Part shown: positions 14,195 through 19,680 of the stretch, one piece after another
How positions within the stretch are numbered: position 1 is the first letter of the stretch
Layout: each line of letters begins with the position of its first letter
NCBI GenBank assembly: GCA_040754075.1
Contig: JBFMDH010000009.1
Location: 124,001-188,000, forward strand
Direction: 5' to 3'
Origin: Acidobacteriota bacterium
GTDB taxonomy: Bacteria; Acidobacteriota; Blastocatellia; UBA7656
Length of the DNA stretch: 64,000 bases
Translations under genes and position numbers: made by a program
Notes under the pieces: generated by a model
The model's input: only the letters and a program-made list of their open reading frames with translations
Databases searched by the model: none
Told to the model about the DNA's origin: nothing

Positions 14195-14824
14195 CTATTT
14201 CGATTTGTGCATAGCCATTGCTAGTTCTGATTGCGGCACAAAAACACTTTGCACCGGGTCAGCAACCCATTCGGCAGATTTCAAACCCGCCTTTTCTTCA
14301 TATGAAAAGCTGATGAGAAACTGATTCGGATTATAAGGTTTGACAGACCACCCGGTATAACTGACGAGTTGCCCGCTTTCTCGCGACTTTTTAACCTCAT
14401 CCATCATGCATTGGTCTAAAGTCATACCCTCTTTTTTAGAAGGCATATTCCGTAACCGGGTCATCAAACCGGCGGTGGCTTTGGCTTCTTCCAGGCTTAT
14501 TTCTTTGGGTTGCACATAGCGATAGGCAAAGTACGCACTGACGCAAAGAATAACCAGGGTCACAGCCCACAGCGCCCAACTCGGAATCAGCGATTTAAAA
14601 GGGATGGTTCGCCAGTTTTTCCAATCAATGGATTTCCAGTCAACTTTTTGACGGTTGGCTTTCCAAACAACTTTTCCTTTTTGTTTTCGTCGGTCAGCCA
14701 CCAGCTTTTGCTTTTCAACAGAGGCTTTCTTTTCAGCCGCCTTGCCTTTCGGCGTGACCAGATTGCACCCCGGACATTGCATGGCTTCTGGCGGCGTTTC
14801 CGTAAAACATTTCGGACATCGCAT
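14195..14824 (-). CDS. Zinc-ribbon membrane protein, paralogue A
   Basis: This 209-residue protein has an N-terminal four-cysteine zinc ribbon (CPKCFTETPPEAMQCPGC), a long basic linker (residues 28-75), one transmembrane segment about 82-103 and a C-terminal domain outside. The C-terminal domain includes a stretch with MTLDQCMMDEVKKSRESGQL and ends in a small beta region. Paralogue B (15048-15611) has the same architecture and similar phrases. Function is unknown. Tandem placement and the pilin gene next door suggest a cell-envelope role, but that is inference. Confidence 0.75.
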   Translation of the reverse strand: MRCPKCFTETPPEAMQCPGCNLVTPKGKAAEKKASVEKQKLVADRRKQKGKVVWKANRQKVDWKSIDWKNWRTIPFKSLIPSWALWAVTLVILCVSAYFAYRYVQPKEISLEEAKATAGLMTRLRNMPSKKEGMTLDQCMMDEVKKSRESGQLVSYTGWSVKPYNPNQFLISFSYEEKAGLKSAEWVADPVQSVFVPQSELAMAMHKSK

Positions 14825-15047: not shown

Positions 15048-15611
15048 TTAAGGTTTATAAACAAAGTTTGCCAAATCGGTTTGTGGTTTATAGGTATTTT
15101 CAAAAGCATTAAACAGCCAGACGGCTTTTTGCTGCTTATCTTTTTCCTGAAAGGAGAAGGTAATGGAAAAGCCGCCCTCAATCGCTTCGACATTCCAGCC
15201 TTCCGACTCCATCAGGTTCTCTGCCTTGCGCGATTTTTCAACTTCATTGTTCAAGGCTTCATCAACCGTCAAATAAGAGTTATTGGCAGTTTGCGATTGC
15301 AATCGTTCGAGGACTTCCTGGTGCGGAATGCGTTCGGCGGGTTTTGGCGGGTCGCCGAAATAAGTGAAACTGAGATATGCCCCCAAGGCACAAATGCTCA
15401 CAGACGCGACAATAATTAGCGTAGAGACCAGCGGGCTGATGCTGAGCTTTTTTGCCCCGCCGGAGATGCTTTTATCGAAACGGCTTTTTTCAGAAGCTTT
15501 CTTCTCTTCTGCTAATTCGGCTTCTAAACGCCCTCTTGGGGTCTTCAATTTACAGCTTGGACAAGATAGCGCGCCAATCGTGGTTTGGGTGCGACATTTC
15601 GGACAGATCAT
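15048..15611 (-). CDS. Zinc-ribbon membrane protein, paralogue B
   Basis: This 187-residue paralogue of the preceding protein has the zinc ribbon CPKCRTQTTIGALSCPSC, a basic/acidic linker, a transmembrane segment about 60-85 and an outer domain with LTVDEALNNEVEKSRKAE. It shares the order of the parts, the PxGR/K phrase after the ribbon and the L-(T/D)-(V/Q)-(D/E)-(E/Q) plus EVKKSR/EVEKSR pattern with paralogue A. The two genes probably arose by tandem duplication. A hydrophobic-rich start follows a GGAGGT-type site (TGGAGGTG). Confidence 0.75.
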   Translation of the reverse strand: MICPKCRTQTTIGALSCPSCKLKTPRGRLEAELAEEKKASEKSRFDKSISGGAKKLSISPLVSTLIIVASVSICALGAYLSFTYFGDPPKPAERIPHQEVLERLQSQTANNSYLTVDEALNNEVEKSRKAENLMESEGWNVEAIEGGFSITFSFQEKDKQQKAVWLFNAFENTYKPQTDLANFVYKP

Positions 15612-15953: not shown

Positions 15954-16403
15954 ATGAAAGAAGCCGGTTTTTCCTTGGTAGAAATATTAATTGTGGTGGC
16001 GATACTGGGAATATTATCGGCGATTGCAGTTCCGAATTTATTGCGTTCCCGCCAGGCTGCCTTTGAAGCCAATGCTTTAAGGTATGTGAAAACCTGGCTA
16101 CCGGGTCAGGAAATGTATAAACGCGCCCACGGTCGTTATGCCGATAGCGATGAAATCATGGTATCGGAAAAATTCATCAATAAAAGCATGCGTTCGGGCA
16201 ACGCCGACGACACCGCTTATACCTATTCCATAGATTCCCAATCAACCAACGCGAACGGCACTCCCAACACCACCCGGTGGTGGGGAACTGCCAGACGGCG
16301 ATTCGGCTATAACAAAATTCAATCTTTTTACATTGACCAGACGGGCGTCATCCGCAGCGCTTTTGCCAATACGGCGACTTCACTCGATAAACCAATAGAA
16401 TAA
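15954..16403 (+). CDS. Type IV pilin-like protein
   Basis: This 149-residue prepilin has a very short leader MKEAG followed by the class III cleavage site and the hydrophobic helix FSLVEILIVVAILGILSAIA. The conserved Glu is at position 5 of the mature chain. The remainder is a small globular domain with Tyr- and Arg-rich phrases. It could be a major pilin, minor pilin or pseudopilin; no pilus assembly genes are adjacent, so this cannot be decided. An AAAGGGG ribosome site precedes the ATG. It converges on hom with only 4 bp between stops. Confidence 0.9.
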   Translation: MKEAGFSLVEILIVVAILGILSAIAVPNLLRSRQAAFEANALRYVKTWLPGQEMYKRAHGRYADSDEIMVSEKFINKSMRSGNADDTAYTYSIDSQSTNANGTPNTTRWWGTARRRFGYNKIQSFYIDQTGVIRSAFANTATSLDKPIE

Positions 16404-16407
16404 ATTT

Positions 16408-17448
16408 TTAAAATTTGCCCGATAGTTGTCGGTGAATGCTGAGCATATCGCTTAACAAGGCATAAGCGGTTTGCCTGAGCTTCGGGTGATGTTCGACAAG
16501 GCTGATTTCACCCATCAAATCGGTGGTTATGGAAAGCGCGCTTGAGGTGCCTTGCAGGGTAGCAAACAGCGAGCCGACATTTGTGATTTCCGGCGCAACC
16601 TGAATTTCTACCTTCTCACCTCGACGCTCGGCGCGGGCGATTAAGCGAATCGTTTTACCGGCGGCACGCGCCGACTGAACAGCTTTCAAAGTCACCTCGC
16701 GAATGCCCGTGGGTGACAGATTGCGTGGATGCAACTCAGCATTCATTAAGACATTGGCTAAAGCGATAGCCTTTACTCCCGCATCCCATCCGTCAATATC
16801 GTAATCGGCGTTGGCTTCGGCAACCCCCAGTTGTTGCGCTTCCAGAAGTCCTTCGGCAAATGTGCTGCCTGCTTCCATCGCGCTCAGGATGACATTGGTG
16901 GTGCTGTTTAAAACGCCTGAGAAACCGAGAATCTCGGTTGCCGGTAAACCGAACCGATGCAGGTTGAAAATTGGTGTGCCATCCATCACTGTGCCTTCAA
17001 AGTGAAATTTCGCTGCCTGCTTTTCGGCAAGCGATTGCAACTCGTGATAGGCACAGGCAATCGGCCCTTTGTTTGCCGTAATGACATGGATACCGAGCCT
17101 TAGGGCTGCGCGAATATAAGTCGTCGCCGGTTCGCCATCCAAGGGGCTGAGCGGGGTGGTCTCAAAAATGATGTCGGCATCAGCGCGTTGAATCAACTCT
17201 TCGGCGTCGGTGATTTCCGTTATATCGGAAATGCCGGAAAGTTGATGGTGACGTTCGACCCGCTCGGTTGCTTCCATCAGGTCAATATCCGAATCGGTGA
17301 TGATTGAGCCGTGGCGATGTGTGGCAATCCCTGTGGTTCGCCACTGAACGCCATAGATTTCATTGAGCAAGGTTTGACGGCTGGCAAGCAGTCGCGCGAA
17401 TTCACGCGCCACGTTTCCGAACCCGATGAAGGCGAGTTTTAATTGCAT
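16408..17448 (-). CDS. hom: Homoserine dehydrogenase
   Basis: This 346-residue protein begins with a Rossmann NAD(P) motif (LAFIGFGNVAREFARLL). It carries the family signatures TANKGPIACAYHEL and ADYDIDGWDAGVKA, which include the substrate-binding Asp and catalytic Lys. It reduces aspartate semialdehyde to homoserine for threonine and methionine synthesis in the cytoplasm. It is the short form without a C-terminal ACT domain, so threonine feedback through ACT is not expected. It starts 18 bp after the hpt stop, suggesting an hpt-hom operon. Confidence 0.92.
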   Translation of the reverse strand: MQLKLAFIGFGNVAREFARLLASRQTLLNEIYGVQWRTTGIATHRHGSIITDSDIDLMEATERVERHHQLSGISDITEITDAEELIQRADADIIFETTPLSPLDGEPATTYIRAALRLGIHVITANKGPIACAYHELQSLAEKQAAKFHFEGTVMDGTPIFNLHRFGLPATEILGFSGVLNSTTNVILSAMEAGSTFAEGLLEAQQLGVAEANADYDIDGWDAGVKAIALANVLMNAELHPRNLSPTGIREVTLKAVQSARAAGKTIRLIARAERRGEKVEIQVAPEITNVGSLFATLQGTSSALSITTDLMGEISLVEHHPKLRQTAYALLSDMLSIHRQLSGKF

Positions 17449-17466: not shown

Positions 17467-18003
17467 TTAAGCCGTTGTTGGATTGAGTACGGCGATATGT
17501 GGCAGGTTGCGGTAACGCTGTTGATAATCCATTCCGTAACCGACGACGAACACATCTGGAATGTCGAACCCGCGATAAGCAATCGGCAAATTAATCAGGC
17601 GTCGGGCGGATTTATCGAGCAGCGTGCAGAGTTCAAGGCTCGCCGGATTACGCTCTCTGAGAACTCTTCGCAGATAGTTTGCCGTAAGCCCTGTGTCGAT
17701 GATGTCTTCAACCAGAAGGACATTGCGTCCGGTGATACTCTCTTCCAAATCCTTGGTGATGCGAACGACTCCCGATTGCGGTTGATTGGCGTAAGAAGAG
17801 ATCGCCATAAAATCGATTGTGGTGTGAATCGTGATGGTGCGCAGCAAATCGGCAGCAAAAATAAATGAGCCTTTGAGAATCGCGATGATTGCCAGGTCTT
17901 TACCGGTATAAGCCGCTGAAATTTCCGCGCCCAACTCTGAAACCCGCTCCTGTAGCCGATTCTGTGGTATGAGAACTTTTCCTAACATGATTTCTTTGGT
18001 CAT
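17467..18003 (-). CDS. hpt: Hypoxanthine phosphoribosyltransferase
   Basis: This 178-residue purine-salvage enzyme transfers phosphoribose from PRPP to hypoxanthine or guanine. The PRPP-binding loop VLLVEDIIDTGLTANYL is intact, and the flexible-loop and base-binding regions (AISSYANQPQSG; FVVGYGMDYQQRYRNLP) are present. Length is normal. Its upstream region holds a structured RNA candidate pointing the other way and then a nuclease-like gene on the same strand as hpt. Confidence 0.95.
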   Translation of the reverse strand: MTKEIMLGKVLIPQNRLQERVSELGAEISAAYTGKDLAIIAILKGSFIFAADLLRTITIHTTIDFMAISSYANQPQSGVVRITKDLEESITGRNVLLVEDIIDTGLTANYLRRVLRERNPASLELCTLLDKSARRLINLPIAYRGFDIPDVFVVGYGMDYQQRYRNLPHIAVLNPTTA

Positions 18004-18046: not shown

Positions 18047-18074
18047 TTGACATAATTTTTCAGTGTGATAGTAT
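18047..18074 (+). promoter_or_regulatory. Sigma-70-type promoter for the structured RNA
   Basis: TTGACA at 18047-18052 is a perfect -35 hexamer. After 16 bases comes TAGTAT (18069-18074), a 4/6 match to the -10. Transcription would begin near 18081, exactly where the first long hairpin of the RNA candidate starts. Confidence 0.6.
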
Positions 18075-18080
18075 CACCGC

Positions 18081-18507
18081 CACTTGGTTGGTAACAACTA
18101 AGTGCAGATCCCGAGAGGTTGAAATTGAAATCTTCTGAATCGTAAGTGAACCAAAGCTTCGCAAGAAGTGGCGGGGAACATACGAAACCTCTAGTACGGA
18201 TACCGACGTTTGAAAGCTGAGGGAAGCGGAAACTCGCAAGAGTGGAAGCCGACCAAGGTTAGAGAGTAGAGGGAAGCGGAAGCCGACGAAAACGGCGGGC
18301 AACCAAAGTTTTTGAAAGCGGAAGATGACTGAAGCTCAAAGGACGAAGGGGAGCGGAAACTCGCAAGAGCGGAAGCGAACCGGAGTTCAGAAAACGTGGG
18401 CTGTTAGGATTCTTCGGAATCTTAACAGGTAAGATTTCGCAAGGAATCTGAACTATGTACAGAGGCTCGGAGGAGGACAACGTAGGTCACTCGGGATCAC
18501 TGCTTTT
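18081..18507 (+). ncRNA. Large structured non-coding RNA candidate (about 430 nt)
   Basis: No believable ORF fills this gap, but many nested complementary segments do. Hairpins: 18081-18090 with 18095-18104 (10 bp, GTAA loop); a stem around GCAA at 18161-18164; ACTC-GCAA-GAGT at 18232-18243; CTC-GCAA-GAG at 18360-18369 inside 18329-18337/18383-18390; 18401-18412 with 18417-18428 (12 bp, TTCG loop); 18432-18438 with 18443-18449 (GCAA loop). Long-range: 18104-18115 pairs with 18490-18503 (12 bp, 2-nt bulge) and closes the whole fold. Five loops are GNRA on the plus strand only, which fixes the strand. It does not show RNase P, tmRNA, SRP or group II intron signatures. HEARO/omega-RNA-like or lineage-specific RNA are the alternatives. 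Confidence 0.75.
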
Positions 18508-18574
18508 CAGGCAACAATTTTTCAGCAAACCGCATACATCACATTCAAATTTTATTATCAATTAATCTTGAGCC

Positions 18575-19168
18575 TTACCTTCTGCCGCCGCTTGCTGAGA
18601 ACTTTTCCAGCAATTTGTGGTAATCCGAAGCGTAGAGCAGTTTGATATTCACATCCGGGTAGTGTTCGCGCAGCAACCGCACTTTGCGATTTTTCTTGGT
18701 CACCAGCGACTGTTTGAGCGTGGTAAGTTCGATGTAGAGGTCGTGGTCGGGCAGATAAAAATCGGGTGTAAAACTGGTGGCGACATTGCCCGCTTCATCG
18801 CGTTCGAGCACGAAGGTGCGCGGTTCGTACTGCCAGTGAATATGATAAAAATCGAGTATGCGGGCAAATTCGGCTTCGGAATCGTGAGCAAATTGAATGA
18901 GGCTTTCGGAGGCAATGGATTCATCCCTCTCGAAAGCGCTTTGGGAACGCTCTTCATCCGGTTGTTTTTGGACAAGGGCTTCAACCGCGCGTTGCAGTTC
19001 GGGTAAAAGTGATGCCGGAATCTCCACGGCATATTCAGCGGTTTGATTGAGCGGGTGCTGGTCTTTGATGACGAGGAATTGTTCTCCGTCGCGTTCGGCA
19101 ATTTGAATATCAATGTCAGCAGGTTTGGTCAAACGTTCAGTTGATGCGTCTACAAATTTTGTCGTCAT
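18575..19168 (-). CDS. Conserved protein with PD-(D/E)xK-nuclease-like domain
   Basis: This 197-residue protein starts at the ATG at 19168. The C-terminal half contains EFARILDFYHIHWQYEP, then SFTPDFYLPDHDLYIELTT and KNRKVRLLREHYPD. The order PD...(E)xT-KNRK resembles the PD-(D/E)xK fold, with Lys replaced or displaced. From memory, this domain is often found next to or fused with hypoxanthine phosphoribosyltransferase in various phyla; here hpt is the next minus-strand gene, 570 bp away. Enzyme activity is unproven. The N-terminal half (ADIDIQIAERDGEQFLVIK) is a separate small domain. Confidence 0.7.
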   Translation of the reverse strand: MTTKFVDASTERLTKPADIDIQIAERDGEQFLVIKDQHPLNQTAEYAVEIPASLLPELQRAVEALVQKQPDEERSQSAFERDESIASESLIQFAHDSEAEFARILDFYHIHWQYEPRTFVLERDEAGNVATSFTPDFYLPDHDLYIELTTLKQSLVTKKNRKVRLLREHYPDVNIKLLYASDYHKLLEKFSASGGRR

Positions 19169-19315
19169 AAGAAACCTATGCTTGTGCCTCACAGGGTTCC
19201 TGCCTGCGTAAAACGCAACTGAAAAGAGGGCTTAGGGTTGCGTTGCGCCCCTCGTTCGGTTGGGTTTAATTGCTCAGCAGGTTTATGTCCCTCAGCTCAA
19301 GCAATTGTCTCAACA

Positions 19316-19440: not shown

Positions 19441-19680
19441 TTACGCGCAAGGTAACCTGACCCGCGCCAGATTGGACTCTTCAACGAAAGTGTCCTGCCA
19501 CACGAGTTGCACTAACTCTTCTTTTTCGAGAATCCGACCCCGGTTGTTTACCAGCGCCAGAAGCACATCGAAAGTTTTCGGTGGCAGCAGCAAATCCTTG
19601 CCATCGCGCAACAGCACCCGTTCTGTCGCATCCAGACGAAAGTCACCGAAATCATAAAATTTGTTGCTTTGACTGGACAT
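19441..19680 (-). pseudogene. Truncated winged-helix transcriptional regulator (N-terminal fragment)
   Basis: The 79 residues form most of an OmpR/CadC-type winged-helix domain: FGDFRLDATERVLLRDGK, PPKTFDVLLALVNNRG and QLVWQDTFVEESNLAR. The frame then ends abruptly after NLAR-VRLPCA, before the recognition helix is complete. In intact homologues (compare the N-terminus of 55869-58907) the domain continues into further sensor or ATPase/TPR modules. No continuation is visible downstream in any frame. It is read as a deletion remnant, although a tiny expressed fragment is not excluded. Confidence 0.65.

Follow-up and report, generated by a model that had tools for sequence, protein, structure and literature searches.

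A predicted large structured RNA with an expandable arm array beside an extra hypoxanthine phosphoribosyltransferase gene in Blastocatellia

Between an hpt gene and a nuclease-like gene of an Acidobacteriota bacterium lies a gap of about 430 nt, for which the initial annotation had proposed a large standalone structured RNA. What does this gap encode, and what could its product do? The gap was analysed within the window, i.e., the whole 64,000-nt stretch of DNA under study. The plus strand of 18070-18520 folded at a minimum free energy (MFE) of -142.6 kcal/mol, compared with -120.3 ± 5.6 kcal/mol for dinucleotide shuffles (z = -4.0; 0/100). The minus strand of the same segment was unremarkable (z = -1.25). 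No conserved ORF was found in 18081-18507, where the only frames are two TTG-started ones of 80 and 73 aa on the opposite strand. The length differences among the homologues described below are also not multiples of three, and the first impression that no believable ORF is present was thus borne out. A search of its own genome (G000) showed the RNA gene to be single-copy and chromosomal. With its own promoter, a covarying fold and no conserved ORF, it fits the descriptive kind "large structured ncRNA". As a prediction from sequence, it can hardly be doubted that 18081-18507 on the plus strand is a real structured RNA gene.

The sigma-70-type promoter of the RNA, TTGACA-16-TAGTAT, was located by consensus scan at 18047-18074 on the plus strand, where it had been noticed before. 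At all five homologous loci TTGACA is invariant and TARTAT is conserved. Because the promoter ends at 18074, the RNA should start at about 18081, inside the first hairpin, P1. The 5' end is therefore taken from the promoter, and the 3' end is uncertain, at about 18500-18510. The 3' end of the RNA showed no intrinsic terminator, and none was found between the RNA and the nuclease-like gene either. In the window, the -10 box of the RNA is overlapped by a 13-bp palindrome, GTGATAGTATCAC (18066-18078). Its counterpart in the related genome G001 is GTGATAATATCAC, and it is degraded in the other carriers. The palindrome is possibly an operator or a bidirectional -10. A weak divergent promoter, TTGTTA-16-GATACT, was also readable by inspection on the minus strand.

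Among 58 relatives searched by blastn, homologues of the RNA turned up in four genomes, all of its own Blastocatellia family. The five carriers, window included, span four of the five genera of the family, and both family genomes of genus g3 lack the RNA. Two covariance models were used, i.e., R1 for the 5' half and R2 for the whole core. Outside the five family genomes, no R1 match was obtained in the class (162 genomes) or in the phylum (396 genomes drawn), and no R2 match in 37 near relatives under laxer filters. The pattern scan of GTDB r220 contigs gave 20 matches, but only three Blastocatellia loci scored with the RNA model, i.e., Acidobacteria bacterium NC_groundwater_983, Chloracidobacterium sp. 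UBA7656 (placed by NCBI in Blastocatellia, Acidobacteriota) and Blastocatellia bacterium Chersky_418. The remaining matches, including Selenomonas and Halobellus, received no score and were rejected as chance or coding. The 5' core pattern recurs in Selenomonas (L038, L040, and L043) and Halobellus (L042, L045, L046, and L047) without model support, probably as conserved coding sequence. Plasmids and phages gave no match in the DNA search. Viral contigs gave 0 matches to the 5' core pattern and four to the 3' core pattern, none with model support. No such RNA was found at hpt loci elsewhere in the phylum. An RNA limited to this lineage, one of the options first named, agrees with this distribution, since among the genomes searched the homologues occur only in five genomes of one Blastocatellia family.

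The core consists of P1, the closing helix P2, the arm P3, and the multiloop stem P4 that encloses P5, P6, and P7. P1 (18079-18105) is a 5' hairpin with a GUAA loop, paired at 18082-18090/18095-18103 in the window fold and in 100% of cells across the five sequences. P2 contains 3x3 and 4x4 purine-rich loops, and its 5' strand (18107-18138) and 3' strand (18467-18498) carry the invariant segments GAUCCCGAGAGGUU and CACUCGGGAUC, respectively. In the window fold, P2 begins with a 9-bp outer part (18107-18115/18490-18498) and continues in short helices to 18138/18467. The initial annotation had drawn a 12-bp long-range stem here. Nine of its pairs stand, while the other three are only possible, lying past a 2-nt bulge and competing with P1. 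P3 (18140-18185) has two 3x3 loops and a GCAA tip, with both-side changes at seven pairs. P4 pairs 18188-18198, with both-side changes at four pairs, to 18456-18465, the latter strand being given by the consensus core and the window fold. P6 (18401-18428) is a 12-bp hairpin with a UUCG loop and P7 (18432-18449) a 7-bp hairpin with a GCAA loop, showing both-side changes at six and four pairs, respectively. All these elements lie on the plus strand. Seven terminal loops appear in the MFE fold, six GNRA and one C(UUCG)G, of which the GNRA loop GGCAAC in arm 2 is uncertain; the earlier count of five GNRA loops and one UUCG loop was fair.

The alignment for covariation held five sequences of one family, from which the variable P5 insert was taken out. 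Its consensus core has 81 pairs, 92.8% of the cells pair, and 27 of the 81 pairs have changed in both partners. The covariation score was 0.433 against 0.289 ± 0.018 in shuffles (0/500), which leave relatedness uncorrected and start from only five sequences, and controls with slid partners reached at most 0.144. The covariation that the initial annotation had named as a check is present. When each full RNA was folded singly, without the alignment, 71/72, 59/74, 77/78, 74/74, and 74/78 of the formable core pairs were recovered. Five independent folds agree, so chance is very unlikely despite the few and related sequences, and the fold, like the gene, is close to certain. In the outer helix of P2, P2a, both strands hardly vary, which leaves next to no covariation within it and indicates constraint on sequence as well as on pairing. 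The window RNA contains 15 symmetric interior loops, compared with 4.1 ± 2.2 in its shuffles, and the G001 RNA contains 11, compared with 3.9 ± 1.8. Unpaired runs in the core consensus do not exceed about 8 nt, a point against an antisense seed.

The P5 domain is where the homologues differ in size, its arm number changing from genus to genus. In the window it occupies 18199-18395 on the plus strand (196 nt) and contains three homologous modules at 18220-18254, 18270-18304, and 18347-18381. The modules are 35-nt copies with 66-89% identity, and the internal duplication suspected from a shared pattern in three modules was thereby recovered. The insert measures 27-28 nt with one short arm in G003, G004, and G006, 196 nt with at least three arms in the window, and 292 nt with five arms in G001. 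The five arms of G001 are GCAA-tipped and spaced by 55, 53, 52, and 52 nt, and TRF detected the last 2.9 copies of this array at 72% match. Total RNA size accordingly ranges from about 250 to 520 nt among the carriers, the short forms being about 250 nt. P5 grows through duplication of roughly 50-nt arms. The arm consensus in the window is 3 bp, 3x3 loop, 2 bp, 3x3 loop, 2 bp, 4x4 loop, 4 bp, and a tetraloop, arm 2 having the least certain fold. The arms are composed of symmetric purine loops and GNRA tips, and as modelled they would be rigid rods in which canonical pairs are combined with noncanonical ones.

The RNA was compared with known families. None of the 4227 Rfam models gave a relevant match to it, either at the gathering threshold or at E 10, and the family thus appears to be undescribed. 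This search included the models that had been suggested first, HEARO and the acidobacterial motifs. At the RNA locus the covariance models of HEARO, OLE, ROOL, GOLLD, Acido-1, and Acido-Lenti-1 found no match, and neither did those of 6S RNA (RF00013), RNase P RNA (RF00010) and tmRNA (RF00023). Single copy, chromosomal position, a constant neighbour and a conserved promoter would suit a divergent housekeeping RNA, i.e., 6S RNA, tmRNA or RNase P RNA. Identity with any of these three is nevertheless extremely improbable. RNase P RNA (G000:C37, 287 bits, RF00010) and tmRNA (G000:C42, RF00023) are encoded elsewhere in the genome over the Rfam cut-off, in accordance with the initial remark that landmarks of both are missing here, and ARAGORN found no tmRNA in the window. 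A 6S candidate also lies elsewhere in G000, at 39.4 bits below the cut-off of 46.4 (RF00013). Candidates for 6S RNA were found elsewhere in all seven family genomes, three of them, G000 included, below the cut-off. Furthermore, G002 and G005 live without the RNA.

On its 3' side the RNA faces a gene on the minus strand (18575-19192), whose product weakly resembles T7 endonuclease I. The protein keeps an invariant PD and an E-L-T, where PD-(D/E)XK enzymes usually have E-x-K, and shorter paralogues of it occur in G004 and G006. The gene is adjacent to and convergent with the RNA in four of the five carriers and is encoded by all five genomes. This association would be expected if the RNA were the guide or scaffold of a nuclease system, as in the HEARO/omega-RNA option of the initial annotation, and a structured RNA a few hundred nt long with a nuclease-like gene close by does recall the RNA of IscB. 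We consider this reading very unlikely, and the option found no support. The RNA has no HEARO match, no IscB/HNH-type ORF is adjacent, and the neighbour, a PD-(D/E)XK T7-endonuclease-I-like protein, is convergent. The nuclease-like gene is moreover unlinked in G001 and present in G054 (83% complete) without a detected RNA. It probably stands outside the RNA system. Two further features of the surroundings were observed. Neighbouring paralogous proteins encoded at 14195-14824 and 15048-15611 carry an N-terminal zinc-ribbon-like CPKC...CPxC motif. A 79-aa ORF at 19441-19680, whose sole match is a Trans_reg_C DNA-binding domain, is perhaps a truncated regulator.

Since the nuclease-like gene is convergent at four of five loci, the RNA leads no adjacent co-directional gene there. 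In G001 about 365 nt separate the RNA from a co-directional greA on its downstream side. A cis-regulatory leader or riboswitch was rejected on this arrangement. Together with the conserved promoter, the covarying standalone fold and the lack of a conserved ORF, it points to a trans-acting RNA, and we regard it as likely that the RNA acts in trans and is not a leader.

On its 5' side the RNA is divergent from hpt2 (17467-18003, minus strand), which encodes an extra hypoxanthine phosphoribosyltransferase (HGPRT). The protein passes the HGPRT equivalog cut-off (TIGR01203, 205.7 bits against 150) and keeps the PRPP-binding motif. It resembles an ordinary HGPRT, and nothing in it obviously suggests RNA binding. 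The initial annotation had treated hpt as a flank only. It is a flank, but it is also an extra HGPRT paralogue and the most constant neighbour of the RNA, being the sole one common to all five carrier loci. The RNA-linked copies (L056-L060) are 76-83% identical to that of the window and form their own clade (support 0.976), and a main hpt with about 50-55% identity is also carried by the family genomes. All five RNA carriers have hpt2, and G002 and G005, both without the RNA, lack it, a co-occurrence based on seven genomes. The outer neighbours vary, i.e., homoserine dehydrogenase in G000 and G001, Methyltransf_28 in G003 and G004, and an ABC transporter in G006. This variation between genera indicates that the hpt2-RNA pair was retained through rearrangement. 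Ahead of hpt2, both G000 (15954-17448) and G001 (L014:302-1871) have a pilin-like gene and homoserine dehydrogenase, so local synteny reaches past hpt2 in both genera.

The start of hpt2 lies only about 44 bp from the -35 box of the RNA. This proximity, the palindrome over the -10 box in the window and G001, the weak minus-strand promoter and the missing terminator before the nuclease-like gene are what one would expect if the RNA, or its transcription, controlled hpt2 or the convergent gene in cis by promoter interference or as antisense. Such local regulation is possible and rather unlikely. Simple interference needs no covarying core of 81 pairs, the nuclease-like gene is unlinked in G001, and complementarity to either mRNA is not established.

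We infer instead that the free-standing, single-copy gene would produce a structured RNA acting in trans. Its arms, read as GNRA-capped ladders made up of steps of 2-4 bp and of symmetric purine loops, could be repeated docking sites for protein or for tertiary contacts, which best explains repeated arms of variable number on a fixed base. The number of arms would then set the valency of docking sites, and the nearly invariant base of P1 and P2 may be what a dedicated partner recognises. The constant linkage makes HGPRT2 or purine salvage the foremost candidate, and the adjacent HGPRT, encoded divergently from overlapping promoter DNA, would be the likeliest partner or target of regulation. 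The best overall explanation, an RNA tied to hpt2 that acts in trans as a scaffold or docks protein, has in our judgement about an even chance. That the RNA is a protein-docking scaffold or sponge is slightly less probable than that, and its direct coupling to the HGPRT2 protein is doubtful. The fullest version, a modular RNA class whose valency evolves by tandem duplication of noncanonical arms of about 50 nt and which works together with a dedicated HGPRT2 as RNP or regulator, is improbable. If transcribed, the RNA is a compact natural example in which repeated arms are gained or lost on a conserved core and size varies accordingly. It also suggests a connection, open to testing, between a structured RNA and an enzyme of purine salvage. 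If the coupling to HGPRT2 is true, this enzyme would be a second RNA-linked phosphoribosyltransferase besides PyrR.

PyrR is itself a phosphoribosyltransferase, and its binding loops in pyr leaders have the consensus ARUCCNGNGAGGYU. The invariant GAUCCCGAGAGGUU / GATCCCGAGAGGTT (18107-18120) fits this consensus at 13 of 14 positions. However, the motif is paired in the P2 helix, is not in a leader and has no Rfam hit, and five one-mismatch matches occur in the window, so the likeness is a weak lead only. The GGA-rich repeated modules of variable copy number also resemble protein sponges of the CsrB/RsmY type. A CsrB-type sponge was rejected, as GGA lies here in symmetric internal loops, and the terminal loops of the core and most arms are GNRA or UUCG. 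Acido-1 and Acido-Lenti-1 (RF01686 and RF01687) are structured RNA candidates of Acidobacteria (PMC2864571), but their covariance models do not match this acidobacterial RNA. Among the papers searched, none paired Blastocatellia with noncoding RNA.

Large orphan structured ncRNAs are already known as a kind. OLE, ROOL, and GOLLD are likewise large and free-standing RNAs of bacteria, highly structured, with obscure functions and many possible GNRA-type contacts. They assemble without protein, and kissing-loop contacts are listed among their stabilising interactions (PMC12286853). By analogy, the present RNA could be an ornate RNA-only particle, perhaps a homo-oligomer held by GNRA and A-minor contacts, whose arms set its shape. 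Its large, highly structured form, the GNRA or UUCG nature of nearly all terminal loops and the noncanonical steps of the arms would fit. The larger terminal loops for kissing contacts are absent, and the short forms reach only about 250 nt. We hold such a particle to be a minor possibility; among functional readings we infer a protein scaffold or sponge first and the RNA-only particle second. The scaffold RNA proposed here is unrelated to OLE, ROOL, and GOLLD by sequence or covariance model, has tetraloop tips instead of kissing loops, and is shorter (250-520 nt). It is fixed beside an HGPRT gene and varies in arm number, and it is this expandable arm array, with the linkage to HGPRT2, that sets it apart.
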